Assembly (NCBI GenBank): GCA_017792345.1
Contig: CP051228.1
Span: forward strand, 496,001-560,000
Origin: Mesoflavibacter sp.
GTDB taxonomy: Bacteria; Pseudomonadota; Alphaproteobacteria; UBA8366; Aestuariispiraceae
Direction: 5' to 3'
DNA length: 64,000 bases
The notes beneath the pieces were generated by a model. It ran no database searches. It saw only the letters and a list, made by a program, of their open reading frames with translations, and was not told the DNA's origin. Both the position numbers and the translations under genes were made by a program. Positions 22,285 through 44,514 of the stretch are shown piece after piece. How positions within the stretch are numbered: the first letter of the stretch is position 1; each line of letters opens with the position of its first letter.

Positions 22285-22761
22285 TCACCGCCGATATTCG
22301 GACCCGTCGGTCTGTTCACCGGTCAGCTGCCGGATCAGGCCGTGGACATCGCCCAGCACCCAAAGGTCGCGAACCCTGGGGCCATCGAAGTGAAAAATCG
22401 GCGCGCCGTACCACCAGACATGCCGTCCGGTGGCGGCGTGTCCGAACATGGTGTCCCGATGGGTCCCGTGAAAGCGGAGTTTTCCTGAAACCCGGTCCCC
22501 CTCCTCCACCATCTCCAGAATGTCGGACGTGTAGTTTCCCAGTGCCTGTGTCACCCAGCGGACATAGCCGGCAAATTGTTCATGGCCGACGAGGGTCGGG
22601 CCCAGCGAGCCCCTGAACGTGAAGTCCGGATGAAAGATTTCCGGGATCAGCGACAGATCCGCATAGTCCCACATGTCCTTATAGAACTTTCGAACGACTT
22701 CCTTCTGCGGGCTTAGCGCCCTGTCCCCGAACGTCATGGCGGGTTCGTCAAATGGGGGCAT
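22285..22761 (-). CDS. SnoaL-like/ester-cyclase-type small protein
   Basis: 158-residue protein of the SnoaL/NTF2-like alpha+beta barrel fold: 'VVRKFYKDMWDYADLSLIPEIFHPDFTFRGSLGPTLVGHEQFAGYVRWV' followed by 'FHGTHRDTMFGHAATGRHVWWYGAPIFHFDGPRVRDLWVLGDV'. Proteins of this type are predicted ester cyclases, dehydratases or ligand binders; the reaction is not inferable. Last gene of the GntR-led (-) operon, 42 bases after the PhyH-type gene. Confidence 0.8.
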   Translation of the reverse strand: MPPFDEPAMTFGDRALSPQKEVVRKFYKDMWDYADLSLIPEIFHPDFTFRGSLGPTLVGHEQFAGYVRWVTQALGNYTSDILEMVEEGDRVSGKLRFHGTHRDTMFGHAATGRHVWWYGAPIFHFDGPRVRDLWVLGDVHGLIRQLTGEQTDGSEYRR

Positions 22762-22803
22762 TCTGCGTCCTTTCCGGCAGACCGGGTTCCATGAAGCGGT
22801 CCC

Positions 22804-23718
22804 TTACAAGGGAACGACCTCAAACCTCGCCGCCAGTTTCTGGTTCTGGGCCACAATTGCCGGGTCCGGCAGAACCGGACCTTTCATTCGGCCCGCGATC
22901 CCGTCCTCGTCCAGATGGGGCAGCACCTGCGGGAATATGGGACCGCCGATCGCGTCACCCGGCTGCAGCCCGTGCCGCCAGGCGACCTGAAGCTCCGTTT
23001 CGGTGGGCGCGTATCGGGCATCGTCCCCGCACCAGCGCGTCGCGATGGCCCGCCTGTTCAGCCCCCCGGCGGGTTTGCCGCGCGAACCATGCAGGGTCAG
23101 GGCGTGAAACAAGACAGCGTCGCCCGGCTGCATGTCCCAACTGGCGATCCGATAGCTGTCCCGGGCACCGTCAAAGTCCGGGGCCGGATCGAATTCCGCC
23201 ACGGATTTCACGATCCCACCGACCCCCAGGGGGCGGAAACGCTGCGGCCATTTGTGGGAACCGACTATGAATTCCAGGGCGGATTCCTCCGCCTTTACCG
23301 GATCGACCGAGGTCCAGACCGATGCGATCTGAGCACCGCTCAACGGAAAGAATGTCATGTCGTGATGCCAGGGTGTCCGGTCGGCGTTATACGCCTGCTT
23401 CACGAAGATCTGGTCGCAGAACAGATTGACGCGCGCCGACCTGAATGCCTGCTGCACGAGCCCGGCCGTCGGTCCGAACAGGGCGAAATCCCGCACATTA
23501 TCGTTCTTGTGCCACGTATAGGGGTCGGACCGAAAGAACGGTTTCTTCGCCTCGGCGGACCGGTCGTCGCCGAAACCGCATATCTCATCCAGCGCGGCCT
23601 GGACGGTATCAATCCATTTCGACGAATAGAGGCCCCGCACGGCGATGACCCCGTCGCGCCAGAATGCATCAATCTCCGCCTCCGAAAGGGGCCGTGCGGG
23701 TGTTTCGGGTATCATCAT
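22804..23718 (-). CDS. Phytanoyl-CoA dioxygenase-family (PhyH) Fe(II)/2-oxoglutarate oxygenase
   Basis: 304-residue double-stranded beta-helix oxygenase. The iron-binding His-x-Asp is in 'RTPWHHDMTFFPL' (H118, D120), the distal His in 'DAVLFHALTLHGSRGK', and the 2-oxoglutarate-binding Arg likely in 'NRRAIATRWCGDD'. PhyH relatives hydroxylate acyl-CoAs, ectoine, alkyl phosphonates or other small molecules. It uses iron and 2-oxoglutarate and needs no ferredoxin, so the neighbouring ferredoxin pair serves something else. The start overlaps the stop of the DapA-like gene by 4 bases. Confidence 0.85.
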   Translation of the reverse strand: MMIPETPARPLSEAEIDAFWRDGVIAVRGLYSSKWIDTVQAALDEICGFGDDRSAEAKKPFFRSDPYTWHKNDNVRDFALFGPTAGLVQQAFRSARVNLFCDQIFVKQAYNADRTPWHHDMTFFPLSGAQIASVWTSVDPVKAEESALEFIVGSHKWPQRFRPLGVGGIVKSVAEFDPAPDFDGARDSYRIASWDMQPGDAVLFHALTLHGSRGKPAGGLNRRAIATRWCGDDARYAPTETELQVAWRHGLQPGDAIGGPIFPQVLPHLDEDGIAGRMKGPVLPDPAIVAQNQKLAARFEVVPL

Positions 23719-24635
23719 CGAGACTCCTCCAGGACTGCGCCACTGTCTTGATCACAAGGTGCCGCCAATTGGGCCAACAGACGTTCGAGATCCTGCCATT
23801 GCGACGGGGCCAAAGGGGACTGCGGCGCGACAGGATCGCCGACATCATACCCTTGGATCGTCAGCCCGGCCTTCACACAGGCTGCCAATCCGTTGCGATT
23901 GAAGAAATCGTTCAACACCCAAAGCCGCCTTTGCAAGGCCGCCGCGCGTTCCCATTCGCCCTTGCGGCAGAAATCGTAGAGCCGGACGCATTGTTCGGAA
24001 ACAAGGCAGGCGGGGCCGGCCATCCAGCCTTGCCCGCCGATCATCATTACGGCGACGGGCAGATGGGACGAGGCGGCGAATATGCCCAGATCATCACCGC
24101 ATCTGTCCTGGATGGACAACAGCCGCCCGGTATTGAAGGACGCATCCTTGAGGTATTGGATCCGTTCGTGCTGCGACAGACGGACGATCATGTCGATGGA
24201 CAGGTCGGTTCGCTGAAAATTGGGATTCGTATAGAGAACGATCGGCACGGCGACCGCATCGGCAATCGCGCGGAAGTATCCTTCCACCTGATGCGGCGCG
24301 AGGGGAAAATAGGAATCGACGACGGCGATGATCCCGTCGACCCCCAGGCTTTCGTATCGCCTCGCCTGATCGACGGCATCCCTGGTCGAGGTCGAGGAGA
24401 CACCTGCCAGAACCGGCACACGCTTCTCGGCGGCCGCGACGACCGTCTGCACGACGGCTTCCTTCTGTCCCCGGTCCAGATAGGCGAACTCGCCCGTCGA
24501 CCCGAGGGCCGCGAGGCCATGGACACCCTTGGCGATCAGATCGCCGCATAGTGTCGCCAGCACCTGCCGACGAACAGTGCCGTCGGGCGATACCGGAGAG
24601 ACGATATAGGGGAAAATTCCGTCAAACCGAGGCAT
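23715..24635 (-). CDS. Dihydrodipicolinate synthase-family aldolase/dehydratase
   Basis: 306-residue DapA-superfamily TIM barrel. The substrate loop is 'ALGSTGEFAYLD', the catalytic Tyr is in 'VPIVLYTNPNFQRTDL' and the Schiff-base Lys in 'RIQYLKDASFNTGRLL'. Family members cleave or condense 2-oxo acids. It is not a copy of the nearby kdgD: the loop and C-terminal half differ clearly. ATG 24635 ('MPRFDGIFPY') is chosen over 24692 as it gives the normal DapA N terminus; it overlaps the reductase gene end by 14 bases. Substrate unknown. Confidence 0.85.
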   Translation of the reverse strand: MPRFDGIFPYIVSPVSPDGTVRRQVLATLCGDLIAKGVHGLAALGSTGEFAYLDRGQKEAVVQTVVAAAEKRVPVLAGVSSTSTRDAVDQARRYESLGVDGIIAVVDSYFPLAPHQVEGYFRAIADAVAVPIVLYTNPNFQRTDLSIDMIVRLSQHERIQYLKDASFNTGRLLSIQDRCGDDLGIFAASSHLPVAVMMIGGQGWMAGPACLVSEQCVRLYDFCRKGEWERAAALQRRLWVLNDFFNRNGLAACVKAGLTIQGYDVGDPVAPQSPLAPSQWQDLERLLAQLAAPCDQDSGAVLEESR

Positions 24636-25863
24636 GGGCGTTCCCCGGTTGCAGGTGTAGCAGAAGCTCCTTTGCCGCCACGGCCGCGTCACTTGCTTGG
24701 TCCGCCAGGGTTTCCGATCGGGACCCGATCAGGCGTCGCGCAACCATATGCTCCGCGGGCTGATTGACGGATTCGACCGAGGCCAATTGACCATTCCGGA
24801 AACGGAAGACGGAAAACCGGTTCCGCTCCGGGTCGCCCCTAAGAACCTGCCGATCGGCCTCGCCGGGCAGGCCGGCGATCTGCAGCTTGTCGCTCCCCTG
24901 GTCGCTCCAGAACCAAGGCACCGCCGCATAGGGTCTCCGGTCTCCGGTCAGCCGCCGCGCCACGCATTTGGCATGGTCATTTGCGTTCTGAACGCTTTCC
25001 AAACGGATCGGCGCCGCCGCATGGGGCGAGGGAAATTGGGCACAGTCACCGATGGCCGAAATGGCCGGATCTGTCGTCGAAAGATACGTATCGACGACGA
25101 TGCCGTTATCCACGGCCAAGCCGGCGCGCGCCGCCAATTCGGTATTCGGCATCACACCGATCCCGGCCACGACGAGGTCTGCCTCAATCTCGCCGCCCGC
25201 TGTCGTCAGTAGGGTCGCCCGGTTTCCGAGGTGCCGGAAGATTTCGGCGACCCCCTGCCCAAGGTGAAAACGCACCCCCGCGTCCTGATGGCGATGGCGG
25301 AAGAAATCGGACACCTCTTCCGAGGTCGCGCGGGCCATGACCCGCGTGCCGATATCCACGACCTCCACGGTTTTGCCCTGCGCGGCGGTCAGTGCCGCGA
25401 ATTCCAATCCGATAAACCCGGCGCCGATGACGGCGACCCGGCGGGTCTGCGGCAGGCGCCCTCGCAGGATATCGGCGTCCCTCAGGCTCTTCAGATAGTG
25501 GACCCCGGTGTCCCCGGCCGGCACCGAGACGCGTCGGTTAACCGTCCCCACAGCCAGGATCAGATGATCGTAAGGCAAGGCATCCCCGGTACCCAGCCGC
25601 ACCTGCTGCCGGTCGCGGTCGATTTCCTCCGCGACGCCGGAAACCAGATGAATATCGTGGTCCGCAAAGGCCGTCTCCGCGCGAAGCAGGATTTCGTCGC
25701 GGCGTCCCGATTTCATATAGCCTTTGGATAGCGGCGGCCTTTGATACGGCGCGGCCTCCTCGCCATTCACCAGGGTCACCCGGCCCCTGAACCCGTTCTC
25801 GCGCAGCGCAAACGCCGCCTGGCAACCGGCGTGGCCGGCACCCAGAATGACGATGGTTTCCAT
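24622..25863 (-). CDS. FAD-dependent ferredoxin reductase
   Basis: 413-residue NAD(P)H:ferredoxin reductase of the putidaredoxin-reductase class. The N-terminal FAD motif is 'VILGAGHAGCQAAFALRENG', the NAD motif 'VAVIGAGFIGLEFAAL' is near residue 145, and 'TYLSTTDPAISAIGDCAQF' binds the flavin. A C-terminal domain of about 85 residues ('WFWSDQGSDKLQIAGLPGEADRQVLRGD') is typical of this class. It reduces the ferredoxin encoded 25 bases upstream; no P450 or Rieske oxygenase is in the window, so the final acceptor is open. Confidence 0.9.
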   Translation of the reverse strand: METIVILGAGHAGCQAAFALRENGFRGRVTLVNGEEAAPYQRPPLSKGYMKSGRRDEILLRAETAFADHDIHLVSGVAEEIDRDRQQVRLGTGDALPYDHLILAVGTVNRRVSVPAGDTGVHYLKSLRDADILRGRLPQTRRVAVIGAGFIGLEFAALTAAQGKTVEVVDIGTRVMARATSEEVSDFFRHRHQDAGVRFHLGQGVAEIFRHLGNRATLLTTAGGEIEADLVVAGIGVMPNTELAARAGLAVDNGIVVDTYLSTTDPAISAIGDCAQFPSPHAAAPIRLESVQNANDHAKCVARRLTGDRRPYAAVPWFWSDQGSDKLQIAGLPGEADRQVLRGDPERNRFSVFRFRNGQLASVESVNQPAEHMVARRLIGSRSETLADQASDAAVAAKELLLHLQPGNAHASV

Positions 25864-25888
25864 GTCCTACCCCGCCCGGTCTTGCCGA

Positions 25889-26212
25889 TCAGAATTGCGT
25901 TTCCGGGATGTGCAGGATCAGGCTGTCGATCTCGTCGGACAGTTCGATCTGACAGCACAGCCGGCTGGTCGCCTTTCGTGGGGCCGCGACGAGGTCCAGC
26001 ATATCCCCTTCCTCGTCACTGGGCGGCGGAAGCTTTTCGATGTCCGCTTCATCGACATAGACATGGCAAGTCCCGCAGGACAGCGCGCCGCCGCATTCGG
26101 CTTCGATCCCGCCGATTCCGTTCAGGCGCGCCGCGTTCATCGCGGAGGAATTGCCTGAAACGGTTATTTCGCGGCGAACGCCCTGCGGCGATACAAAGGT
26201 CAGGCTAGGCAT
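25889..26212 (-). CDS. 2Fe-2S ferredoxin (putidaredoxin/adrenodoxin type)
   Basis: 107-residue soluble electron carrier. Cluster cysteines are in 'CGGALSCGTCHVYVDE' (C-x5-C-x2-C pattern) and 'TSRLCCQIELSDEID'. 'LTFVSPQGVRREITVSGNSSAMNAARLNGIGGIEAEC' matches the vertebrate-type fold's first half. It is paired with the reductase downstream and follows the HdrD-like gene by 22 bases, so these three proteins may form one electron path. Confidence 0.92.
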   Translation of the reverse strand: MPSLTFVSPQGVRREITVSGNSSAMNAARLNGIGGIEAECGGALSCGTCHVYVDEADIEKLPPPSDEEGDMLDLVAAPRKATSRLCCQIELSDEIDSLILHIPETQF

Positions 26213-26234
26213 GGCTGATAATCCTTCCTTCTGG

Positions 26235-27551
26235 TCAGGCGCCTGCGATCACGACGCCCTGAACCGGTTTGGCCGCGATCTGGTCCGCCAACAGAATGTC
26301 TCGGGCCTCATTGGGGTCTAATCCATGGGCGTCGATCAGATCGCGGCATTCGTCGATCATCCGGTCGACGCCCTCCATCATCTTGATCCGCTTGTAGATA
26401 TCCTCGGCATGGAGCCCCATGCTCTCGCCGATGATTTCCATGACGTTGACGATTTCGAACGAAACGTTCTTTTCGAAATGGCAGAGTTCGCGGTGACACG
26501 CGTGAAACACGGTCGCCAACGTGGTGACGCCGGCATTCGCCGCTGCCTGGAATTCCTTCTCGCGCAGAGCATCCTTGAAGCGGGGCGTCACCGTCAGATA
26601 GTTGGACATCAGGCCGGCACGCGGCACGTCCAGATCTACCAATTCGACACCCGGGATCTCCCGCAGGATGGCCTTCACCGCCCGCGTTACACCGGGCAGG
26701 CCCGGCCGTTCGTTCAGGGCGACGGTCTTGTTCACACGGTGTTTGAAATGCGGCCGAAGCTGATCGAGCCGCGTTTCCAGAAACTCGAAGAACGGCTGCA
26801 GGTGGAAAGACCGGTCCTGCGTCATCTTCTCGTAATTGGGAATGATGATCTCATCGAACTGCGACTGGCAGCTGGGACACCAGGATACTTTTGCCGGCGC
26901 ATCTATTTCCCGGATCTGGTTCAGGGTACTCAACCCGGCGCGCCCGGAAGTCTCGCCATCACCGGCGCGAAACTGGTTGATGCCGCAGCAGGCCGACGTC
27001 CCGCCGACGACCTGATACCGTGCGCCGATCCGTTCCAAGACATCCAGGCACAGGACCAGGATATGCGGGGTCTTATGGATGTTACACCCCGTGAACAGGA
27101 CCAGATCCGCCGCTTCGGGCTCGCCGGTCGCCGCGCGCGACGGCTGCAGGCGGTCAATGGCCTGTTGCGGCAATTGTAGGCGCGACACAACCCGGACCGT
27201 CTTCGCCATGGACCGGAAGGACTTCAGGGCGTTGGCCTTCACCGTCGCCCCGTCGCGCTTCCGAATCCGGGCGTAATTCGCCAATCGGACGAGCATGCGC
27301 GGATCGACGCCATAGTCGCAGGCATCGGCACACAGGCCGCTGCTCGAACAGGCCGCCGCCCAGTTCCGGGCTTCCTCGGTCCCGTCGCCCCCGCGCAATA
27401 GATCGATCATGCCGTGCAGGACGCCAGGGGGATCCGCCGCGTCAATGCCGATGGCGCCGGTCATCGGACAGGCGGTAAAACAATTGCCACAGGCCGTACA
27501 GGCCTCTGCCATCGCGTCCATTCGGACACGTAGGGCGTCTACAAATTCCAT
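26235..27551 (-). CDS. HdrD/GlcF-like iron-sulfur protein with 4Fe-4S and CCG domains
   Basis: 438-residue cytoplasmic Fe-S protein. An N-terminal 4Fe-4S site is complete (C18-x2-C21-x2-C24-x3-C28). The second, 'AAACSSSGLCADACDYGVDP' (C68, C74, C78), has Ser at the place of the usual second Cys. A CCG domain follows ('FTGCNIHKTP', 'GGTSACCGINQ', 'VSWCPSCQSQ'). A second one is degenerate, keeping only 'HACHRELCHFE' and having 'NKTVALNERPG' where a Cys is normal. Relatives pass electrons from 2-hydroxyacid, glycerol-3-phosphate or disulfide oxidoreductases. No flavin dehydrogenase partner is adjacent; the ferredoxin pair is the likely partner. Confidence 0.85.
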   Translation of the reverse strand: MEFVDALRVRMDAMAEACTACGNCFTACPMTGAIGIDAADPPGVLHGMIDLLRGGDGTEEARNWAAACSSSGLCADACDYGVDPRMLVRLANYARIRKRDGATVKANALKSFRSMAKTVRVVSRLQLPQQAIDRLQPSRAATGEPEAADLVLFTGCNIHKTPHILVLCLDVLERIGARYQVVGGTSACCGINQFRAGDGETSGRAGLSTLNQIREIDAPAKVSWCPSCQSQFDEIIIPNYEKMTQDRSFHLQPFFEFLETRLDQLRPHFKHRVNKTVALNERPGLPGVTRAVKAILREIPGVELVDLDVPRAGLMSNYLTVTPRFKDALREKEFQAAANAGVTTLATVFHACHRELCHFEKNVSFEIVNVMEIIGESMGLHAEDIYKRIKMMEGVDRMIDECRDLIDAHGLDPNEARDILLADQIAAKPVQGVVIAGA

Positions 27552-27580
27552 GAAAGGTCTCCTTTGGGCGGGCCCGCGCT

Positions 27581-28342
27581 TCAGCGGGCCGTCCAGCCGC
27601 CATCCGCGAAAAGGGTCGAACCTGTGCAGAAGGACGATTCATCGCTGGCCAGGAAAAGCATGGCGGCGGCGATCTCTTCCGGACGACCGAGGCGGTTGAA
27701 CAATTGGCGCTGTTCCAGATGGGCGCGTAGCTTTTCCGGGTCCGGGCTTTCCGCGAACAGGCGGTCGTAATAGGGCGACTCCACGGTCCCGGCCCCGATG
27801 CAGTTCACGCGAATTTTCTGGTCTGCGTGATCCAGTGCCATCGCCCGGGTCAAGGCCGCGACCGCCCCTTTGGAGGCGACATAGGCCGCCCGGTTGTAGA
27901 TGCCGACGACGGAGGCAGCAGACGCCGTATTGATAATCGAGCCACCGCCCTGTGCCGCCATGATCGGGATCACCGCCTTGCAGCCGAAGAACACGCCGTT
28001 GACATTCGTCGCCATCAGCGCGTTCCAGTCGGCCGCCGTCGTGTCGACGACCGTCCCGCCGATGCCATATCCCGCATTGTTGACCAGGACATCGATCCGA
28101 CCCCAGGTCGTCTGGGCCCGTTCGACCATGTTGACGACCTGATCTTCGTTCGAGACATCGGTTTCCGTCGCAAAGGCCTTCCCGCCCGCGGCCTCGATCT
28201 CCTTCGCGACCCGCTCACCGTCGGCCTGGTTGCGATCGGCGATGCAGACGGACGCCCCCTCCCTTGCGAAGAGCAGCGCGGCGGCATGTCCGATCCCCGA
28301 CCCGCCCCCCGTGATGATGGCAGTTTTGTTCCTTAGGCGCAT
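27581..28342 (-). CDS. Short-chain dehydrogenase/reductase
   Basis: 253-residue classical SDR: NAD(P) motif TGGGSGIG near residue 11, 'DVLVNNAGYGIGG', the catalytic Ser in 'SIINTASAASVVG' and Tyr-x3-Lys in 'AAYVASKGAV'. The 'CIADRNQADGER' segment with Asp after beta-2 suggests NAD rather than NADP. It oxidises or reduces an alcohol/ketone intermediate of the operon's pathway; the substrate is not evident. It is 109 bases downstream of the GntR gene. Confidence 0.9.
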   Translation of the reverse strand: MRLRNKTAIITGGGSGIGHAAALLFAREGASVCIADRNQADGERVAKEIEAAGGKAFATETDVSNEDQVVNMVERAQTTWGRIDVLVNNAGYGIGGTVVDTTAADWNALMATNVNGVFFGCKAVIPIMAAQGGGSIINTASAASVVGIYNRAAYVASKGAVAALTRAMALDHADQKIRVNCIGAGTVESPYYDRLFAESPDPEKLRAHLEQRQLFNRLGRPEEIAAAMLFLASDESSFCTGSTLFADGGWTAR

Positions 28343-28451
28343 ACCATGCTCCTTGCATAATGGTTCGGATGGGTTCGATGGGACAACGCAGCAAGACCGG
28401 CGGCCCGGAAGGACCGCGGCGATGCCGCGATGATCGGGCGGACGGCCCGGT

Positions 28452-29105
28452 TCAGCTTCCCAGAAGGGCGATTTCCGTGGTGCGGATATGCGCCTGCAGC
28501 GCTTTTGCGAGCGCCACGGCGTCGCGCGACCGCAGGGCGTTCAGAATGTCCTGATGCTCGCGCTGCCGGATCTCGGCCGCTGCCGGATTGGCCCCGCGTT
28601 CCGCCAGATAGGACACGACGTGAAACTGGATTTGAAGCTGGGCATAGAACCGGCTCAGGGTCGGGTTGCCCGCCAGAGCGACGATCGCGGAATGGAAATC
28701 CGTGTTGGCCCGGACGAAATCCGAAGACGATCCCGCATCCCCCAGCCGTTCGACCCCCCGTGACAGATCCATCAGATCCGCGTCGGTCACGTTCTCCACG
28801 GCGTATTGCGCGGCGAAGGTCTCCAAGGTCGACCGAAGGGCAAACAACTGACGCGCCTGATCGTGCTCGATCGGATTGACGACCGTCCCGCTTCGGCCCG
28901 CGACGGAGAGGAACCCCTCGCTTTGCAATCGGTTGATGGCTTCCCGGACCGGTGTGCGGCCAATCTTCAGCCGGTCCGCCAGAAGATAGACCGATGTCCG
29001 CTCTCCCGGACGCAAGCCTCGGCTCAGCACCAAATCGATAATGCCGTAATAGGCCTGATCGACCGCGGAGAGTTCTTTCACAGATGTTTTCGAAATCTTG
29101 GCCAC
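28452..29105 (-). CDS. GntR/FCD-family regulator leading the Fe-S/PhyH operon
   Basis: 217-residue regulator. The winged helix spans about residues 15-80 ('AYYGIIDLVLSRGLRPGERTSVYLLADRLKIGRTPVREAINRLQSEGFL') and a FCD domain follows ('QLFALRSTLETFAAQYAVENV'). The start is a GTG at 29105; there is no in-frame ATG upstream and the N terminus fits. It is first in the eight-gene (-) operon and has a consensus promoter and inverted repeats 230-260 bases ahead, suggesting autoregulation and control of the operon. Confidence 0.87.
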   Translation of the reverse strand: MAKISKTSVKELSAVDQAYYGIIDLVLSRGLRPGERTSVYLLADRLKIGRTPVREAINRLQSEGFLSVAGRSGTVVNPIEHDQARQLFALRSTLETFAAQYAVENVTDADLMDLSRGVERLGDAGSSSDFVRANTDFHSAIVALAGNPTLSRFYAQLQIQFHVVSYLAERGANPAAAEIRQREHQDILNALRSRDAVALAKALQAHIRTTEIALLGS

Positions 29106-29462: not shown

Positions 29463-32400
29463 TCAGGCGTCCAGCACCAGATCCGATATGGGGAAGGCCT
29501 GGCATGCCAGGCAGGAATCCGGTTCGCCTTCTGCGATTTCGACGAAATGTCCGACCTCTCCCGCGACCACCGGCAGGGAGCAGCTTTCGCATTGGCCGGT
29601 CCTGCAGCCCGCCGGCAGAGACAGCCCCTTGCTCTCTGCGAACTCCAGGATGGACCCATCCTGGGGCGTCCACCTGACCGTCGTGCCCTGTTGCCGGAAG
29701 ACGATGTCGCAGGGCTTGAGGGTTTCGGATGTGCTGCGCTTCGGCGCGATGAAGCGCTCGTGGAATATCTCAAAGGCGGGCACGCCGCGCGCCAGCAGCC
29801 CGGCCCGGAACTCGGTCAGCATGTCGTCCGGTCCGCACATATAGAAACGGGCCCGCCGGGCGAAGAGATCCGCATCGATCCGCTCCAAAGTCAGGCGACC
29901 GGCGGTGAAGTCCCCGGTATCGCCGGGCAGTGGACGGCTGTAGAAATTCCGAACCGTCAGATTCGGAACCGCGTCCGCTAGTGCCGCGATCCGGTCCCGG
30001 AAGGCGTGATGGTCGCCATTGCGCGATCCGTAATAAAGCCGGATCTCCGGCCCCCCGCCGCCGGCAAGCTGTTCCAGCAGGCTCATGAAGGGGGTGATGC
30101 CGATCCCGGCCGCCAACAATACGACCGGGAACTCGTTCTCGAAGGGCAGCGTGAAATGGCCGTCCGGGCACCCGGCCTCCAACTCCTCCCCGACCGATAT
30201 GTCGCTCATCCTGCCCGACATCTGACCGTCCTCAAGCCGCCGGATCGCGACCCGGTATGCCGTCGGTGCCGTGCTGGGCGCGCCGATCAGGGAATAGGAG
30301 CGCGACGGCGAAACCTGCCCGTTCGGCGGCAGTCTCATGGGCAGGAACTGCCCCGCCTTGAAGGGCGCGAGGATGCCGCCGTCCCGGTCCGCCAGAGTGA
30401 GGGATGTGACCCCCGGCGCCTCGACCGTCTTGTCGGTCACGATCAGGCGCCGGTATCCGTTCCAGCGCCGGCCGTGCTCGGACCGGGCGGGCCGAACCTC
30501 GCATACCAGCGACCGGACCGCTGGCGCCCCGCTGACCGGGTCCAGACAATCGGAGCGTACAATGGAATTGTAATTGGCATCCGTTGCGCCGCCGATCTCA
30601 TAGGCCGGCGCGCCGATATCCGGGGCGGATTGCCACCAGCCGTATTCCGCGACGACCAGGCCCGGATGCAGATCCGCATCGAATCGCGCCTCCATCGTCA
30701 CATGGCGCTCCCCGCGCAGGATTTCGACCGGCTCGAATTCCGCGATCCCGCGCGCCCTGGCCGTATCGGGATGGATGTCGATCCGCGGCTTCACGGATTT
30801 CCGCCGCAGCGTGGAAAGACCGCGATGCTGGGTGTGGCAGTAATACCCGTTCTTCGCGGTGGTCAGGACCAGCGGATGGCGGTCATCCGTCGGTTCGGGT
30901 GCAACATAATCCGGCACCGGGGCATATCCGTGTTGCTGCAGCAGGCTGGAATAGAGTTCGACCCGCCGCGAGGGGGTGTTGAACCCCTTCACCCCGCCAT
31001 CGCCATTGTCCGCACCATAGGCCCGATACCCGTGCTGCAGCGGGACGGTCACGCCTTCCGGGTTTTCCCGCAGCGTCGCCGTGGTTACGCCGAGCGGTTC
31101 CAGGATCTCGTCATGGGCGGCATCCCAATCCCCATAGGCGAACTGGTCACCGAACCCCAAGCGTTCGGCCAGCGCGGCGGCGATATCGAAATCGGACCGG
31201 GCCTCCCCCCTCGGCGCGACCATGGCCGGACGGAGTTGCAGCAATTGCTGCGCCGACAGCGACAACTCGAAACCGGGCCGCAGCCCGTCCCGCTCCCACG
31301 CGCTGGTGACGGGCAGAACGATATCGGCGAACATCGCACTGGGGTTCAGGAACATGTCGCAATGGACCTGCAGTTCCAGACTTTTGAGCGCCGCCTTTCC
31401 GGCATCCGGGTCGGGCTGCGACGACAGGACATTGCTGCCGAAGCTGACCAGGGCGCGTATGCGATACGGCTTCGCTTCCAGGATGGCGCGATACAGTTCC
31501 GCCCCGGTGACCCAGCCACCGCTTCCGGGGCCGAGCGGCCGCTCCGCCAGCCCCAGGGCCTTCGCCGCCTGGTCCGGGTCCAGCATGGAATAGGCGCTGA
31601 TTGGGCGCATCGGCATCACTGGCCAGGCCACATTGCCGCCCGGGGTGTCATACTGTCCGGTCAGTGCGAAAAGGCAGGCGATGGCGCGGTCCGTCTGTGT
31701 CGCGTTGCCGTGCTGCCCGACGCCGGTCCAGCAATAGTAGCTGATGCGCTTTGCCGCGGAGATGCGCCGGGCGAACTGCCGGATGGCCTCCGGCTCCAGC
31801 CAGCATATCTCGGCCGCGTATTCGGGCGTATACCGCGCCGCCGCCTGCCGCAGATGGGAAAATGCGGTGCGGCATGAAACCTGAGAGCCGTCCTGCAATT
31901 CGGCCGTCCCGGTGTGATCCAGCGCCAGGGCCGCGCACAGATCGGCGGGCGGTCTTACGCGGGTGTCCAAGGCAACCAGCGTTTTCGTCCTGGCATCGAA
32001 TGCGACGAACGCCTCTTCCGGCGCCAATCCGACATCCGCGGCGCGCAGCATCTCGCCGCTTTCGTCCCGCACCAGGAACGGGGCGTTCGACCATTGTCGC
32101 ACGAAATCCGCATCGAACCCTTCGGTTTCGATCAGTTCCCGGATCAATGCGAGGGCCAGGGCCCCATCCGTTCCGGGGCGGACGCGCAGCCATTGCGCCG
32201 CCTTGGCGCCGGTACCGGTCTTCCTGGGATCGACGGTTACCAGATCCGCACCGTCGCGCAGGGCACGCGAGATGACATCGGCCTGGGCCAGCCATACGGC
32301 TTCGGGATTGTGCCCCCACAGCACGATCAGATCGCTGTTCCCGTAATCCGGCACCGGCAGGCCCGTACCGACGGTCAGCTTGTGCATATGGTCCTTGTGC

Positions 32401-32873
32401 CAGTTACACAGTTCCGTCGCCCAACTGATATTCGGACTGCCGAAGTTCCAAACGAGCCGTTCCAGCCAGGGTAACGCGTCGGAGATCGAGGTCGCACTCG
32501 GGGAGGAGAACGAGAATGCGACGGATTCGGGGCCGGTTTCCGACGCGATCTGCTTCAGCGTGCCGGCGATGGCGTCCAGCGCGTCATCCCATTCGATTTC
32601 GACAAAACCCGGATCCGCATCGCCTTTCGGCCGGGTCCGGCGCAGGGGTTTGGTCAGTCGGCGCGCACTGTGGACAAGTTCCGGCGCGGCACGGCCTTTC
32701 GGGCAGACGGCCTTTCCGGTCGGGTGGCCGGGATAGGGGCGCACAGAGACAAGACGACCATCCTCGACCCGGTTCAGGGTACCGCAGCGCGACCGACATA
32801 AGGTGCAGAAGCCGGGGATTTCACCGGCATCCCGCGGCGCTTCTACCCCGAGGTCAATTGTCGAACTGGTCAT
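29463..32873 (-). CDS. Molybdopterin oxidoreductase fused to ferredoxin-reductase and 2Fe-2S domains
   Basis: 1136-residue cytoplasmic fusion (no Tat signal). Residues 1-795: molybdopterin-bis-guanine-dinucleotide oxidoreductase, with a 4Fe-4S site C23-x2-C26-x3-C30-x26-C57, a likely Mo/W-ligand Cys156 in 'WATELCNWHKDH', 'GQHGNATQTDRAIACLFALTGQYDTPGGN', and a C-terminal cofactor-binding domain around 'TAKNGYYCHTQHRG'. Residues about 805-1045: FAD/NAD reductase with 'SRSYSLIG' (near 860), 'LLAAGIGITPFMS' (about 921-931) and 'MCGPDDML' (near 1015). Residues about 1055-1136: plant-type 2Fe-2S site C1090-x4-C1095-x2-C1098 plus C1121 or C1124. This predicts an NAD(P)H-linked self-sufficient molybdoenzyme. 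GGAGGA precedes the ATG. Substrate unknown. Confidence 0.88.
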   Translation of the reverse strand: MTSSTIDLGVEAPRDAGEIPGFCTLCRSRCGTLNRVEDGRLVSVRPYPGHPTGKAVCPKGRAAPELVHSARRLTKPLRRTRPKGDADPGFVEIEWDDALDAIAGTLKQIASETGPESVAFSFSSPSATSISDALPWLERLVWNFGSPNISWATELCNWHKDHMHKLTVGTGLPVPDYGNSDLIVLWGHNPEAVWLAQADVISRALRDGADLVTVDPRKTGTGAKAAQWLRVRPGTDGALALALIRELIETEGFDADFVRQWSNAPFLVRDESGEMLRAADVGLAPEEAFVAFDARTKTLVALDTRVRPPADLCAALALDHTGTAELQDGSQVSCRTAFSHLRQAAARYTPEYAAEICWLEPEAIRQFARRISAAKRISYYCWTGVGQHGNATQTDRAIACLFALTGQYDTPGGNVAWPVMPMRPISAYSMLDPDQAAKALGLAERPLGPGSGGWVTGAELYRAILEAKPYRIRALVSFGSNVLSSQPDPDAGKAALKSLELQVHCDMFLNPSAMFADIVLPVTSAWERDGLRPGFELSLSAQQLLQLRPAMVAPRGEARSDFDIAAALAERLGFGDQFAYGDWDAAHDEILEPLGVTTATLRENPEGVTVPLQHGYRAYGADNGDGGVKGFNTPSRRVELYSSLLQQHGYAPVPDYVAPEPTDDRHPLVLTTAKNGYYCHTQHRGLSTLRRKSVKPRIDIHPDTARARGIAEFEPVEILRGERHVTMEARFDADLHPGLVVAEYGWWQSAPDIGAPAYEIGGATDANYNSIVRSDCLDPVSGAPAVRSLVCEVRPARSEHGRRWNGYRRLIVTDKTVEAPGVTSLTLADRDGGILAPFKAGQFLPMRLPPNGQVSPSRSYSLIGAPSTAPTAYRVAIRRLEDGQMSGRMSDISVGEELEAGCPDGHFTLPFENEFPVVLLAAGIGITPFMSLLEQLAGGGGPEIRLYYGSRNGDHHAFRDRIAALADAVPNLTVRNFYSRPLPGDTGDFTAGRLTLERIDADLFARRARFYMCGPDDMLTEFRAGLLARGVPAFEIFHERFIAPKRSTSETLKPCDIVFRQQGTTVRWTPQDGSILEFAESKGLSLPAGCRTGQCESCSLPVVAGEVGHFVEIAEGEPDSCLACQAFPISDLVLDA

Positions 32874-32965: not shown

Positions 32966-34033
32966 TCAGAGTAGAACAGCCGCGTCCGGCGACCATTCCA
33001 ACACGACCGCCTGCCCGGGTTCAAATTCCGGCACGCCGCGCCCGAACCCGTTCTGCTGATGCACCGTCAGGCGTTGCGCACCGGCACCGACCACGATTTC
33101 GGTCATATTGCCCCGATAGATGATGCTTTCGACGGTCGCGCCGATTTCGTTGCCCGACACGCCCGCCCTTGGTTTTGTCGAGGGGGCACGCAGTCGGATC
33201 TGCTCCGGGCGGATCGAGATCGTCGATTTCTCCGATCCGGCGCCGACATGACCGAAACCGATCACTTCCCCGCTGGCCAGCTTGAACCGGTCCTTTCCGT
33301 CCATCGACCCGGACAGGAAGTTGGACGTGCCGATGAATTCCGCCACGAAACGATTGGCGGGACGTTCATAGATCCCATCCGGCGTTCCGATCTGTTCGAT
33401 GCGTCCGTTCGACATGACGACAATCCGGTCCGCAACGCTGATCGCCTCGTCCTGGTCATGGGTCACGAAGACCGTCGTCAGTCCCAGGTCCTTCTGCAGC
33501 GCCCGCAATTCCGTCCGCACCTCGTGACGCAATTTGGCGTCCAACGCAGACAGGGGTTCGTCCAACAACAACGCGTCGGGCCGGTAGACGATGGCCCGCG
33601 CGAGCGCGACGCGCTGCTGCTGTCCGCCGGACATTTGCCGCGGCAACCGGTCGGCCAGATGATCCATCCGCACCAGCCGCAGCGCCTCGGTCACGCGGGG
33701 TTCGATGTCCCGCTTGTCGACCTTGCGCATCTCAAGCCCGAAAGCGATGTTCTCGGCGACGGTCATATGCGGAAACAGGGCGTAACCCTGAAAGACCAGT
33801 CCGGCATTGCGCAGATAAGGCGGCAGGTCCGTCACCTCGCGATTACCGAAATGAATGCTGCCGCCATCCGGGATGGTCAGCCCGGCGATCATCCGCAGCG
33901 TCGTCGTCTTGCCGCAGCCCGATGGGCCGAGGAAGGCCAGAAACTCGCCCTGATCGATTTCCAGATCCAGAGCGTCGACAGTGACAAGGGAGCCATAGCG
34001 CTTGGTCACTTTGTTGAGGGTGATGCTAGACAT
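32966..34033 (-). CDS. Pot-type ABC transporter ATPase (second Pot-type system)
   Basis: 355-residue PotA/FbpC-type ATPase: Walker A GPSGCGKTT near residue 36, 'GLVFQGYALFPHMTVAENIAFGLEMR', signature LSGG-like 'MSGGQQQRVALARAIVYRP', Walker B 'LLLDEPLSALDAK', switch 'VTHDQDEA', then a TOBE domain. It ends the transporter part of the operon; the fused molybdoenzyme gene follows after 92 bases on the same strand, in which no terminator is evident. Confidence 0.93.
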   Translation of the reverse strand: MSSITLNKVTKRYGSLVTVDALDLEIDQGEFLAFLGPSGCGKTTTLRMIAGLTIPDGGSIHFGNREVTDLPPYLRNAGLVFQGYALFPHMTVAENIAFGLEMRKVDKRDIEPRVTEALRLVRMDHLADRLPRQMSGGQQQRVALARAIVYRPDALLLDEPLSALDAKLRHEVRTELRALQKDLGLTTVFVTHDQDEAISVADRIVVMSNGRIEQIGTPDGIYERPANRFVAEFIGTSNFLSGSMDGKDRFKLASGEVIGFGHVGAGSEKSTISIRPEQIRLRAPSTKPRAGVSGNEIGATVESIIYRGNMTEIVVGAGAQRLTVHQQNGFGRGVPEFEPGQAVVLEWSPDAAVLL

Positions 34034-34045
34034 GGTCGGAAATCC

Positions 34046-34870
34046 TCAGAAGGCGCGGGTCAGTTTGAAGAAGCGGTCGGTTACGACCATCACCAGCGTG
34101 ATGGCCGCGATCTGCACGGTGGCGACCGCGGCAATGGTCGGATCGATGCTCCATTCCAGATAATTGATGATCGCGATCGGCAGCGTCGTCGACCCGGGCC
34201 CCACCAGAAACAGGGATTTCTCCAGGTCGACGAAGGAGATCACGAAGGCGAATAGGCCGCCCGCAAAGATGCCGGGCCGGATCGCGGGCAGTGTGATCCG
34301 CCGGAACACGGTGAACGGACGGGCCCCCAGCGTCAGCGCCGCCTCCTCCACCTGGCGGTCCATCCCGACCAGCGAGGCGGTCACCAGACGGATCGTCCAG
34401 GGCAGCGCGATCAGGCTGTGCGCGAGGCACAGGCCGGCGAATGTCTGGGCGATCTGCACCCCGGTCGCGACCTCGAACCCAATCAGGAACATGAACAGGG
34501 CACTGCCCGCGACGATGCCGGGGACGATCAACGGGCCCAGCAGGATGGTCTGGATCATCTCCCGCCCCCAGAACTGCGTCCGCGCCAGAAAGATGGCTGC
34601 GGGCACGCCGACAAGCATGCTGACCATCGTCGCGACGAAGCCGACCTTGAGGCTCATCAGGAAACCTTCCCGGAACCGGGGCATGTTCCAGGCATTGGCA
34701 TACCAGTCGAGGGTATAGCCTTTGGGGGGGAAGTTGATGATCTTGTTTTCGAAGAAGCTGACCCAGATAACCGACGCCAGAGGCACGATCAGTTCCAGGA
34801 AGGCGAGCGCGGCGAGGCCGATGATGGCGATGTGGAAGATCTTGTCCCCCGATCGTGTCAGGAAGGTCAT
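34046..34870 (-). CDS. Pot-type ABC transporter permease, PotC-like (second system)
   Basis: 274-residue inner-membrane permease with about six hydrophobic helices. The EAA loop is 'DRQVEEAALTLGARPFTVFRRITLPAIRPGI' and 'FVISFVDLEKSLFLVGPGSTTLPIAI' is the PotC/CysW-type segment. It has GGAGG ahead of the ATG and is closely spaced with both neighbours. Confidence 0.92.
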   Translation of the reverse strand: MTFLTRSGDKIFHIAIIGLAALAFLELIVPLASVIWVSFFENKIINFPPKGYTLDWYANAWNMPRFREGFLMSLKVGFVATMVSMLVGVPAAIFLARTQFWGREMIQTILLGPLIVPGIVAGSALFMFLIGFEVATGVQIAQTFAGLCLAHSLIALPWTIRLVTASLVGMDRQVEEAALTLGARPFTVFRRITLPAIRPGIFAGGLFAFVISFVDLEKSLFLVGPGSTTLPIAIINYLEWSIDPTIAAVATVQIAAITLVMVVTDRFFKLTRAF

Positions 34871-34873
34871 CGC

Positions 34874-35755
34874 TCACATCCTCCCGTATTTCTTCTGCAG
34901 CACCACGCTGGAGACGACGGTCAGAACCAGGGTCGCAAACATCAGAACGAAGGCGAGGCTGGCAGCGAACGGCCAGTTGAAGACCTTGACCGCCTGTTCG
35001 TAGACCATCGGCGCCATCATGTGGAAAGTGGGGCCGCCGAGAAGGACCGGGCTGGCATAGGCATTCATGCTGAGAATGAAAACCAGCAGGCCGCCGGAAA
35101 AGATGCCGGGCATCGACAGCGGCACGAAGATCCGGAAGAAGGCGGTCCAGGGCGGGGCGCCGAGCGTTGCGGCCGCCTCTTCATAGGCCCCGTCGATCCT
35201 GTCGAAAACGCTTTGCAGCGTGATGATCATAAAGGGCAGAAGGACCGCAACGAGGCTGAGCAGAACCGCCGTCAGCGTATACATGATGCGCACCGGCGCA
35301 TCGACGACGTTAAGGACCAGCAAGGTCTCGTTGACCAAGCCGCGATCCGCCAGCAATACCATCCAGCCGGCGACCCGCACGGCGTTTCCCATCAGCAGCG
35401 GTATGATGGATCCGAGGATCAGCACGGTCCGCAATACCGGGGATTTTGTGCGGGATATGACATAGGCCGCCGGGATTCCCAGAACCAGACAGAACAAGGT
35501 CGTCAGCGCGGCGACCCAGACGGTACGGCCCAGGACCTCGCGATAGAAGGGGTCCGTGAAGAATTTCAGGTAATTCTCCAGGGTCAGGCCTTCGGCGATG
35601 ATGTCGGCGGGATTGTAGACGGCCAGGCTGTACCGCGCCATCAGCAGCAGGGGCAGGATCAGTCCGAAGGCGACAAGCAACAGGCTGGGGATCGGCAATG
35701 CGCCGAAGGGAAGTTTGACGTGCCGCCGGGTCCGGGAACCCGACGGCATCGCCAT
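34874..35755 (-). CDS. Pot-type ABC transporter permease, PotB-like (second system)
   Basis: Permease of about 293 residues with six hydrophobic segments, an EAA loop 'DGAYEEAAATLGAPPWTAFFRIFVPLSMPGI', and 'FILSMNAYASPVLLGGPTFHMMAPMVYEQ' typical of PotB. The frame is open to 35797, overlapping the binding-protein gene. ATG 35755 (or 35749) avoids this and leaves a usual short N terminus, though no start has a strong ribosome site. Confidence 0.88.
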   Translation of the reverse strand: MAMPSGSRTRRHVKLPFGALPIPSLLLVAFGLILPLLLMARYSLAVYNPADIIAEGLTLENYLKFFTDPFYREVLGRTVWVAALTTLFCLVLGIPAAYVISRTKSPVLRTVLILGSIIPLLMGNAVRVAGWMVLLADRGLVNETLLVLNVVDAPVRIMYTLTAVLLSLVAVLLPFMIITLQSVFDRIDGAYEEAAATLGAPPWTAFFRIFVPLSMPGIFSGGLLVFILSMNAYASPVLLGGPTFHMMAPMVYEQAVKVFNWPFAASLAFVLMFATLVLTVVSSVVLQKKYGRM

Positions 35756-35769
35756 GGTACTGACCGAAG

Positions 35770-36831
35770 TCACCCCTTGAACTCCTTGTTCCACCATTCC
35801 AGCCAGGCCGCATCGTTTTCCGCCGCATAGGGGTAGTCGACGAAATGCAGCGCTTCCTGCTGGGCCGGGGTGAACTCAAGGGACGCCTTCTCCTCAGCGC
35901 TCAAATCCGCATTCGAGGTGGCGACCGAGTAGAAGGTCTTGCGTGCGACACCGGCCATGGATTGCGGCGCCAGCATCGCGTTCAGATAGTCATAGGCCGC
36001 GTCCTTGTTCTTGGCCTTTTTCGGCATGCCGACGCCAAAGGCGATCGCCACCGCACCTTCTTTCGGATACGCCATGTCGATGGGCAGGCCGTTGTTCTTC
36101 CACAGCAGCGCTCGGGCGCTGTAATTGGCGGAAATATCGATCTCGTCATTCTCGAAACCGGCGGCCAGCGCATCATGCGACGGATAGAGGCGGGGCTGAA
36201 TCGCCTCCTTCATCTCCATCAGCTTGTCGAAGGCGGGTTCGACATTGCCCAGCGTACCGCCGGCAACCAGGGAGGCCGCGTAGATGTAGTTGAAGTAGAT
36301 CTGATCGTAGAGACCCACCCGGCCCTTGTATTTCGGGTCCCAGAGATCGGCGAAGCTGGTCGGCGGAGTCTTGATCTTGTTGGGATTGTAAAGGATCACC
36401 ACCCCGCCATAGATCGCCGGCACGTAGTAGGATTGTTTCAGGGACGGCAGAAGCTGGGCGGCGTTGGGCATGCGGTCGAAATCCAACTCCTCCAGAACGT
36501 CCTGTTGATACATTTCGAACGCGTCGCTGTCGCTGAGCCAGGTCAGGTCGACGGAACTGCGGGGCAGTCGGCGTTCCGCGAGAAGCCGCGTCTTCCGCTC
36601 CGACACCGGGGCCAGATCCTTGATCAGATCGACACCAGTGCCTTCGAATGCCTGTTTCTCGAAGGAATCGACCATGTAGTCGTTCCAGGACCCGCCCCAG
36701 TTGGAGACCACGAGCGGCCCCGATTGAGCGCGCGTTGCGGACGGCATCATCCCGGCCGTCAGGGCAGCGCCACCCGCCAGAAGGAAACTCCTGCGTCCCA
36801 TGGAAAAGTTCAGAACATCATGATTTTTCAT
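35770..36831 (-). CDS. Pot-type ABC transporter substrate-binding protein with Tat-like signal (second system)
   Basis: 353-residue PotD-class periplasmic protein. The start at ATG 36831 gives 'MKNHDVLNFSMGRRSFLLAGGAALTAGMMPSATRAQSG', a twin-arginine signal with hydrophobic core and cleavage near 'TRAQ'. The mature start 'PLVVSNWGGSWNDYMVDSFEKQAFEGTGVDLI' and 'VVILYNPNKIKTPPTSFADLWDPKYKGRVGLYD' are classic for the family. First gene of the operon that ends with the molybdoenzyme fusion; divergent from the LysR gene. Ligand unknown. Confidence 0.92.
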   Translation of the reverse strand: MKNHDVLNFSMGRRSFLLAGGAALTAGMMPSATRAQSGPLVVSNWGGSWNDYMVDSFEKQAFEGTGVDLIKDLAPVSERKTRLLAERRLPRSSVDLTWLSDSDAFEMYQQDVLEELDFDRMPNAAQLLPSLKQSYYVPAIYGGVVILYNPNKIKTPPTSFADLWDPKYKGRVGLYDQIYFNYIYAASLVAGGTLGNVEPAFDKLMEMKEAIQPRLYPSHDALAAGFENDEIDISANYSARALLWKNNGLPIDMAYPKEGAVAIAFGVGMPKKAKNKDAAYDYLNAMLAPQSMAGVARKTFYSVATSNADLSAEEKASLEFTPAQQEALHFVDYPYAAENDAAWLEWWNKEFKG

Positions 36832-36925
36832 CGGTTTGACACCATTGATTGGTCGTTTTCTGCGTCTGGAAGCGCCTCGATGAGGCGTGCCCCCTGTTCT
36901 CGGTGTCACTATTGATTCACATTTT

Positions 36926-36971: not shown

Positions 36972-37877
36972 ATGGAATTGACCCTGCGACAGATCCGCTA
37001 TTTCGTCGCGACTGCGGAAAGCGGTCAGGTTTCGCGCGCCGCGGAACTCTGCAACATCACGCAATCGTCCATCACCCTTGCCATCACCGCGCTGGAAAAC
37101 ACGCTGGGATACAAGCTGTTCGTGCGGCAGTCCCGCGGCATGCAGTTGACGGCCCAGGGCGAAAAATTCCTGCGGCATTGCCATGCGATCCTGCGCACGG
37201 TCGAGGATGCGGTCGAACCGGACCCGGCCCAGCCGAGCGACGTTTCCGGGTCGATCCGGCTGGCCGTGACGGGCACGATCGCCGCCTATGTCTTCCCGCC
37301 GGTGTGGCGGAAGATGAACCGCGAGTTTCCCGGCATCACATTGGAAGTGACCGAGGTCGAATATGCCGACATGGAGACCGGTTTGAAGGACGGCACCTTC
37401 GACATGGCCATGATGCTGACGTCGAACATTCAGCAGTCGGACAGCTTCCATTACGAAGAACTGATCCGGTCGCCTCGCCGCCTTTGGGTATCCAGCCGCA
37501 ATCCGCTGGCCAATCGCGAGGAAATATCGCTGAAAGACCTACAGGAGCTGGATTATATCGTCCCCACCATGGACGACCACGAACCGATGATCCGGCGCTA
37601 CTGGGACAAGTATAATTTCAAGCCCCGGATCCTGTTCAAAACCCATTATCTTGAGGCACTGCGCAGCATGATTGCGAACGATCTGGGCATCGCCATCCTG
37701 TCTGACATGGTCTACCGGTCGCTGTCGCTGGAAGGTCGCCGTATCGTGAAACGCGATATCGTCGAGCAGCCGCCCAGTTCCGATGTCGGCATCGCCTGGC
37801 TGAAGACAGCCGACCACACACCGCCGCAAGAGACATTCCTGTCTTTCCTGAAATCCGAGACATCGGACGCCTGGTAA
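36972..37877 (+). CDS. LysR-family transcriptional regulator
   Basis: 301 residues. The N-terminal winged helix is 'MELTLRQIRYFVATAESGQVSRAAELCNITQSSITLAITALENTLGYKLFVRQSRGMQLTAQGEKFL', a textbook LysR domain, and a periplasmic-binding-like effector domain follows ('GSIRLAVTGTIAAYVFPPVWRKMNREFPGITLEV'). Divergent from the second Pot-type operon, its probable target. The effector is presumably the imported compound or a product of the molybdoenzyme. Confidence 0.93.
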   Translation: MELTLRQIRYFVATAESGQVSRAAELCNITQSSITLAITALENTLGYKLFVRQSRGMQLTAQGEKFLRHCHAILRTVEDAVEPDPAQPSDVSGSIRLAVTGTIAAYVFPPVWRKMNREFPGITLEVTEVEYADMETGLKDGTFDMAMMLTSNIQQSDSFHYEELIRSPRRLWVSSRNPLANREEISLKDLQELDYIVPTMDDHEPMIRRYWDKYNFKPRILFKTHYLEALRSMIANDLGIAILSDMVYRSLSLEGRRIVKRDIVEQPPSSDVGIAWLKTADHTPPQETFLSFLKSETSDAW

Positions 37878-41256: not shown

Positions 41257-41275
41257 GCTTCGGTCCCCCTGCATC

Positions 41276-44310: not shown

Positions 44311-44430
44311 GACGACCCCGTATGCCGAGACGGCGATATGGCACCCGGAGCCCGCGCAGCCGTGATCCTGCGCGCCGGGCAGCAACGTTTCAGACAGTTC
44401 CGATTATACAGAGACGCTCTAAACAGCTCT

Positions 44431-44496: not shown

Positions 44497-44514
44497 GCAA
44501 GGAGACATCACACC

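Follow-up and report, generated by a model that had tools for sequence, protein, structure and literature searches.

The window analysed here is a 64,000-nucleotide stretch of a Mesoflavibacter sp. genome (assembly GCA_017792345.1, contig CP051228.1, positions 496,001 to 560,000 of the forward strand), and our subject is one gene within it, which encodes a fused molybdoenzyme that we call MOL. The first-pass annotation, made from the sequence alone, had described a single 1136-residue chain joining a 4Fe-4S/molybdopterin catalytic part, a reductase module and a C-terminal 2Fe-2S domain, and the open frame and the order of the Pfam domains bear this out:

29463..32873, minus strand: fused molybdoenzyme MOL, 1136 aa (open frame, Pfam, AlphaFold2 model with pLDDT 89.3)
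32670..32813, minus strand: Molybdop_Fe4S4 domain, residues 21-68, with cysteines 23, 26, 30 and 57 (Pfam; FdhF alignment)
31161..32660, minus strand: molybdopterin oxidoreductase domain, residues 72-571, containing the metal-ligand candidate C156 (Pfam, alignments)
30513..30872, minus strand: Molydop_binding domain, residues 668-787 (Pfam)
30153..30365, minus strand: flavin-binding domain FAD_binding_6, residues 837-907 (Pfam)
29811..30119, minus strand: NAD(P)-binding domain NAD_binding_1, residues 919-1021 (Pfam)
29490..29690, minus strand: 2Fe-2S domain Fer2, residues 1062-1128, with C1090, C1095, C1098 and C1124 (Pfam, family alignment)

The reading frame is single and stop-free on the minus strand, and all six Pfam domains score over their gathering scores. 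Three of them are diagnostic of the dimethyl sulfoxide (DMSO) reductase superfamily and, together with a matching fold, place MOL within it. The fold comes from an AlphaFold2 model (mean predicted local distance difference test score, pLDDT, 89.3; predicted template-modelling score, pTM, 0.88) computed from an input alignment of 52 rows (the window protein with 51 relatives, almost all of them full-length fusions). The top solved structure found for this model by Foldseek was acetylene hydratase (2e7z; template-modelling score 0.86 on the target, 22% identity). Perchlorate reductase, ethylbenzene dehydrogenase, formate dehydrogenases, ArrA, NapA and polysulfide reductase were also matched, and all 50 listed matches belong to the superfamily. 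None of the 25 listed NCBIfam models reaches its cut-off with MOL, the best being Fdh-alpha (223.7 of 666.25 bits). The 22 residues before the first cluster cysteine hold no twin-arginine-like signal, and this stretch is even shorter in the 12 MOL relatives examined.

The tail had been likened to phthalate dioxygenase reductase (PDR). This stands for the domain order and for the match to 2pia, and less well for the flavin/NAD module by itself, which phmmer matches better to flavohemoproteins (1gvh, E 5.1e-32) than to PDR (2pia, E 1.5e-22). For 2pia, 7ylr and two P450 fusion proteins the match also extends into the 2Fe-2S part in the same order. Both marks of a PDR/VanB-type module are present, namely the flavin - NAD - 2Fe-2S order and a plant-type CxxxxCxxC..C motif, whose cysteines (C1090, C1095, C1098, C1124) are invariant in 52 fused rows. 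We take flavohemoproteins and PaaE to be proteins of flavin adenine dinucleotide and PDR to use flavin mononucleotide. Modules of the PDR and flavohemoprotein types pass electrons from NAD(P)H through flavin, and because MOL carries such a module, reduction is likelier than hydroxylation. We consider it highly probable that MOL is a soluble NAD(P)H-driven reductase.

For the catalytic part, C23, C26, C30 and C57 had been proposed as cluster ligands and C156 as the probable metal ligand. Alignment with E. coli FdhF agrees: the first four fall on its four 4Fe-4S cysteines, K59 on K44 and C156 on the metal-ligand position 140. The functional roles of these FdhF residues, including position 140 as metal ligand, are presumed here, and we likewise take C156 to be the expected metal ligand of MOL. 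The four cluster cysteines, K59 and C156 mark the MOL family, and the surroundings of the ligand mostly read TEICNWHKDxAHxFTFG, the exceptions being locus L049 (CTWHKD; loci carry our own L numbers), loci L062 and L063 (CNFQKD) and five rows from unfused relatives.

These positions also served to weigh known enzyme classes. Formate dehydrogenase was rejected, as FdhF H141 and R333, presumably the catalytic His and Arg of that enzyme, correspond to N157 and V419 in MOL (the R333 stretch is weakly aligned), the Fdh-alpha cut-off is missed and MOL lies on a separate branch. An S/N-oxide reductase (DmsA, TorA, BisC) was rejected too, considering that the ligand Ser of DmsA and TorA is Cys156 in MOL and that MOL forms a separate clade. 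Acetylene hydratase, besides its structural match to the catalytic part, matches by profile at E 1.6e-88 and has a Cys aligned at the ligand position, but its D13 (the Asp after the second cluster Cys), which we take to be essential, is Arg27 in MOL, and it was rejected on this ground. Thiosulfate/polysulfide reductase PsrA (2vpw), the second-best profile match (E 4.1e-79), also has Cys at the ligand position; it is part of a periplasmic membrane complex, whereas MOL is a single chain with its own tail.

A maximum-likelihood tree was built from 48 rows of the catalytic part. One clade with 100/100 support unites the relatives, 16 fused and 19 unfused, and stands apart from the formate dehydrogenases, DmsA, the TorA/BisC type and four nitrate reductases (a separately encoded Variovorax catalytic part was counted as unfused, and S_L032, taken in a wrong reading frame, and L056, which has no single open frame, were left out). 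The nearest reference rows are a 1008-aa protein of the same genome and Rhodococcus L089, both long-branched. The fused proteins are nearly one lineage, with the unfused L044 nested among them, which probably reflects loss of the tail after transfer. The L044 gene (8350-10734) has no tail in the fetched region and adjoins a resolvase-type recombinase and ftsW/penicillin-binding-protein genes. In a quicker 101-row tree, the window protein groups with a protein from a Bradyrhizobium metagenome-assembled genome (54% identity) and lies near L092, L099 and L049, loci with a Pot-type importer; the join of the window with L091 is flagged as one between two long branches.

We regard a divergent nitrate reductase of the assimilatory kind, fitted with an unusual electron module, as a highly improbable identity for MOL. 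Among the annotated plasmid records listed, MOL relatives bear generic names except for one ddhA and one nasC, the latter a point in favour of such an enzyme. Missed NCBIfam cut-offs also prove little alone, as both MOL (NasC 142.9 of 1100 bits, NapA 66.6 of 930.55) and the nitrate-reductase-type protein of the same genome (411.5 and 324.6) fall under them. Against this, the NasC score of MOL is low, and the Met that follows the ligand Cys in Nas/Nap is Asn157. The first-pass annotation had set MOL apart from nitrate reductases, and the 48-row tree upholds it, placing the catalytic part outside the four sampled with full support. The genome holds six further PF00384 proteins, one of which is 59–62% identical to the four best annotated alphaproteobacterial nitrate reductases listed. 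As that annotation also stated, no nitrate transporter or nitrite reductase (nrt or nir) gene was found among the genes family-scanned in 22285-45468 of the window (41276-44385 by eye only).

The C-terminal fusion recurs in many independent genomes and so is no assembly accident, a doubt that had been raised over it. Across 385 alphaproteobacterial genomes, strong relatives (E <= 1e-150) occur in 16. The match is full-length in two of these (the source genome and G318) and stops by about residue 807 in the other 14; the extracted unfused proteins have 771–808 aa, plus one of 731 aa truncated by a contig end. Within the source organism's family, 6/14 genomes have a MOL relative at E <= 1e-120. 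Because the fused form is found in the source genome only among these 14, MOL is, judged by this distribution, an accessory gene in its own lineage. A plasmid collection gave 27 records with a region covering at least 80% of the query (26 at 37–47% identity, one at 27%), from Agrobacterium, Cupriavidus, Rhodococcus, Mesorhizobium, Caballeronia, Sphingobium, Paraburkholderia, Tritonibacter, Klebsiella, Raoultella, E. coli, Phaeobacter, Enterobacter, Novosphingobium, Variovorax and a Paracoccaceae strain. A single-protein scan of reference genomes gave no relative, but an alignment-based scan did: 330 of its 385 pattern matches encode MOL relatives, and among the best 80 of these the match extends to residue 1135 or 1136 in 79 and stops at a contig edge in one. 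Hosts of the fused form are Proteobacteria and Actinomycetota, from Bradyrhizobium and Burkholderia to Streptomyces. On a Variovorax plasmid (L064 8998-12360) the catalytic part and a PDR-like reductase are two adjacent separate genes, this catalytic part clustering with the unfused relatives, and in a Mesorhizobium record the last part of the fused protein is annotated as its own gene. We found no description of the family in the open-access literature searched.

Gene neighbourhoods were compared at 93 fused-form loci: the window, L024, 80 genome loci (the best 80 of 330, hence the most query-like, with 19 from Streptomyces and 7 from Bradyrhizobium) and 11 of 17 plasmid loci, with L051, L060, L062, L063, L064 and L065 (of the type of L054) outside this census. 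Loci cut by contig ends count as misses, and gene calls came from our own uncurated open-reading-frame script. An ornithine cyclodeaminase (OCD)-family gene lies at most five genes from MOL in 49/93 loci, on the same strand and directly 3' of it in 32 and directly 5' in 9, and a TIGR00366 transporter lies within the same distance in 44/93; one or both are present in 59. A LysR gene is near MOL in 27 (26 directly divergent) and a GntR gene in 19 (18 directly divergent), while the next commonest family reaches 9/93. Counting genome loci only (n=80), OCD occurs in 43 and the transporter in 40, or 21 and 20 of 37 genus-level groups. Streptomyces olivaceus (L116) is one locus where a regulator, MOL, OCD and the transporter are all present.

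The OCD partners are of a particular kind. Of 51 entries assembled, 2 failed a length filter and two more, near the ends of loci L126 and L132, were omitted. NF004793 (Delta1-pyrroline/piperideine-2-carboxylate reductase) matches 46 of the 47 scanned at E <= 1e-96, a value close to the model's curated cut-off (322 bits); three partners scored 390–416 bits. The cut-off of this ketimine reductase model is exceeded in 89/385 alphaproteobacterial genomes and 0/14 controls, mostly by one copy per genome. Since a genome mostly has a single copy, we judge that chance would hardly place it next to MOL at half of the loci, although related genomes do not count as independent. Bradyrhizobium, Azorhizobium and Methylobacterium have the OCD gene upstream of MOL, mostly with an ATP-binding cassette (ABC) importer cluster that we read as Liv-like. 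Some loci without OCD have other partners: a Glu/Leu/Phe/Val (ELFV) dehydrogenase-type gene directly 3' of MOL in Amycolatopsis (4 loci), and a class-III aminotransferase a few genes away in Photorhabdus (4 loci; the scanned member is AptA-type by NCBIfam) and in G318. For these calls one member per cluster, plus that of G318, was family-scanned.

As these recurrent partner enzymes handle imino, keto and amino compounds, an imino or keto product formed from a more oxidised, nitrogen-bearing acid is suggested, and a nitrogenous organic acid linked to amino acids is a slightly favoured substrate on these genomic neighbourhoods. The first-pass annotation had proposed an organic substrate that is reduced or hydroxylated with NAD(P)H; the neighbours of the relatives support an organic nitrogen substrate indirectly, and of the two chemistries reduction has become the likelier. 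An N-O bond fits, because one two-electron step would give the imino or keto product, and N-O reduction as such is put forward tentatively. For comparison, mARC, of the MOSC superfamily, reduces oximes, hydroxylamines, N-oxides and hydroxamic acids, according to a review (PMC10637980). N-hydroxypipecolate as sole substrate suits the partner's name and was set aside, there being no evidence for it.

The reaction might then run as follows. NAD(P)H would give two electrons to the flavin of the C-terminal module, and these would pass one at a time through the C-terminal 2Fe-2S cluster and the N-terminal 4Fe-4S cluster to the metal (Mo or W) on C156. There an imported small nitrogenous organic acid would be reduced, the likeliest step being removal of oxygen from the nitrogen of an oxime, N-hydroxy-imine or nitrone of an amino-acid-like compound. 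The product would be an alpha-imino or alpha-keto acid, which, in the usual operon, a ketimine reductase, amino-acid dehydrogenase or aminotransferase would convert to an amino acid. Taken whole, we give roughly even weight for and against a soluble cytosolic Mo/W bis-pterin enzyme that reduces an imported nitrogenous organic acid to an imino or keto acid for amino-acid metabolism.

The same partners allow two other substrates or directions. MOL may instead dehydrogenate or hydroxylate an imported cyclic amino or imino acid and pass the electrons to NAD(P)+, with the ketimine reductase completing an inversion or salvage; the naming of NF004793 for cyclic imine reduction, the place of ethylbenzene dehydrogenase among the better fold matches and the oxidative operation of NAD-linked formate dehydrogenases are consistent with this. 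We consider it unlikely, given that tails of the PDR/flavohemoprotein type feed electrons in from NAD(P)H in known enzymes. It is more doubtful still, to the point of being very unlikely, that the substrate of MOL is an aromatic N-heterocyclic acid such as pyrrole-2-carboxylate, converted in a two-electron reduction to Delta1-pyrroline-2-carboxylate, from which the partner would make proline. The two formulae are two hydrogens apart, the partner family is named for Delta1-pyrroline-2-carboxylate and a Rhodococcus opacus copy of MOL lies near proline catabolism genes; on the other side, Mo enzymes are not known to de-aromatise a pyrrole, and the partners differ in Amycolatopsis and Photorhabdus.

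Several observations weigh against the reduction of an amino-acid-linked nitrogenous acid. The nearest solved structure, acetylene hydratase, is presumably a non-redox enzyme. OCD was not seen within five genes of MOL in 44/93 loci, nor found by tblastn in the six plasmid loci outside the census, so that it is present in 6/17 plasmid loci and was not seen in 11/17. In the source genome, no NF004793 protein exceeds the cut-off and no OCD gene lies near MOL, leaving the proposed partner absent here. At the 19 loci of unfused relatives (regions of up to 20 kb, shorter at contig ends), searches by tblastn, for which the tail and several proteins of the window and of the partners served as queries, found no tail-like reductase gene nearby except in the Variovorax pair, and the Pfam-scanned neighbours at 10/19 loci included no constant partner. 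The chemistry may therefore need neither the tail nor an amino-acid link. Lastly, metal-resistance genes adjoin MOL at 3/4 enterobacterial plasmid loci (L054, L061 and L065, not L060).

This last context raises the detoxification or respiration of an inorganic oxyanion (chlorate, selenate, tellurate, arsenate or similar). The copies on Klebsiella, E. coli and E. ludwigii plasmids adjoin metal P-type ATPases and CueR- or ArsR-type regulators, and perchlorate reductase and ArrA are among the fold matches. Set against these are the ketimine reductase and the TIGR00366 transporter, each near MOL in about half of the 93 loci and at least one of them in 59, as well as an NAD(P)H module of its own and no export signal, and we judge an oxyanion substrate to be quite improbable.

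The plasmid and island copies have features of their own. MOL on Klebsiella and E. coli plasmids, and on the chromosome of Leclercia, is flanked on one side by a spare lpxC together with a CueR-type regulator and on the other by the peptide deformylase gene def, beside metal-resistance genes, and an Alteromonas copy has the lpxC/regulator side in common with this island, with transposase-type genes in place of def. The lpxC-MOL-def island and its Alteromonas variant span:

L054 9238-15927
L144 7184-13928
L065 6172-13927
L149 5371-11790

We take LpxC and Def to be hydroxamate-sensitive metalloenzymes and classic hydroxamate targets; their flanking of MOL may be a coincidence of the island. In Paraburkholderia (L057 3126-7183), an annotated cytochrome c, two molybdopterin cofactor-binding proteins and a (2Fe-2S)-binding protein lie beside MOL, probably a second molybdoenzyme of xanthine-dehydrogenase type.

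In the window itself, MOL has a Pot-type importer and a LysR gene before it, as the first-pass annotation had read:

32966..34033, minus strand: importer ATPase, PotA/PhnT type (family scans; 92-base gap to MOL)
34046..34870, minus strand: importer permease (BPD_transp_1; 12-base gap; kin adjoin MOL in L024 and L049)
34874..35797, minus strand: importer permease, PotB type (family scans; kin adjoin MOL in L024, L049, L092 and L099)
35770..36909, minus strand: importer substrate-binding protein (SBP_bac_8; PotD model under cut-off; kin in L024, L092 and L099)
36972..37877, plus strand: LysR regulator, divergent from the importer-MOL run (family scan; kin elsewhere directly divergent from MOL)
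28452..29105, minus strand: GntR-FCD regulator (family scan; 357 bases from MOL)

The genes for the binding protein, two permeases, ATPase and MOL follow one another on the same strand (intergenic distances -28, 3, 12 and 92 bases), and the LysR gene diverges from the binding-protein gene at a distance of 62 bases. The window LysR shares 47% identity with the Phaeobacter LysR, whose gene is directly divergent from MOL, and the latter shares 41–72% with its counterparts next to MOL in Tritonibacter, Cupriavidus, Paraburkholderia and Caballeronia. Pot-type importer kin lie beside MOL at L024, L049, L092 and L099. The window has this importer in place of the TIGR00366 transporter frequent elsewhere, and here the substrate would enter through the Pot-type importer, under LysR control.

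The genes downstream of MOL were rejected as its partners, as a 357-base gap and a regulator intervene and they are not among the recurrent clusters beside MOL. The GntR-FCD gene probably starts another transcription unit, and the minus-strand run at 22285-29105 (GntR-FCD, a short-chain dehydrogenase/reductase (SDR), a 4Fe-4S/CCG protein, a 2Fe-2S ferredoxin, a ferredoxin reductase and dihydrodipicolinate-synthase-like, PhyH-like and SnoaL-like genes) resembles a distinct catabolic operon that has an oxygenase electron chain of its own. At three further MOL loci an SDR-superfamily cluster is present, in one of them (L052) directly 5' of MOL. On the other side, 37913-45468 holds a DAO/GcvT fusion (dimethylglycine/sarcosine-dehydrogenase-like), a choline-kinase-like gene, an OpuAC-type glycine-betaine binding protein and, read by eye, a ProV-like ATPase and a double-length permease, and reads as a cluster for quaternary-amine use.

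Other single-chain systems resemble MOL in part. Vibrionales YcbX, as described in a review (PMC10637980), likewise joins a Mo domain, an NAD(P)H/FAD domain and a 2Fe-2S domain in one chain and belongs to a superfamily with N-O reduction. Its Mo domain is of the unrelated MOSC superfamily, whereas that of MOL has the DMSO-reductase-family fold. YcbX is also not known to have a 4Fe-4S cluster. The first-pass annotation had called the known nitrate reductase fusion alphaproteobacterial; the nitrate reductase/sulfite reductase flavoprotein found here is encoded on a mycobacterial plasmid (L087). It is by annotation a DMSO-family Mo domain fused to an electron module, but its annotated tail is of sulfite-reductase type and it groups with nitrate reductases in the 48-row tree. 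PDR and PaaE have the flavin - NAD - 2Fe-2S order of the MOL tail; unlike these and the flavohemoprotein modules, that of MOL is fused to a molybdopterin enzyme, with no oxygenase or haem link. The novelty of the MOL family goes no further than that of an uncharacterised variant within the DMSO reductase superfamily, and the conserved operon is the part that specialists would not expect.

DMSO-family molybdoenzymes often need partner subunits or membranes, and a single-chain, soluble, NAD(P)H-driven member would be an unusually convenient form of its class. More speculatively, and on present sequence comparisons rather doubtfully, MOL could represent a new class of N-reductases, self-sufficient bis-pterin enzymes of the cytosol that are fed by NAD(P)H and form the DMSO reductase superfamily's counterpart to mARC/YcbX, with a ketimine reductase in the same operon. 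If so, N-oxygenated amino-acid derivatives (oximes, nitrones, N-hydroxy compounds and possibly natural hydroxamates) would be used as a nitrogen source or detoxified, and the plasmid copies flanked by lpxC and def would be a detoxifying offshoot. The conserved link to a ketimine reductase and a transporter makes this orphan enzyme a testable pathway question, that of bacterial use of a nitrogen-containing acid.

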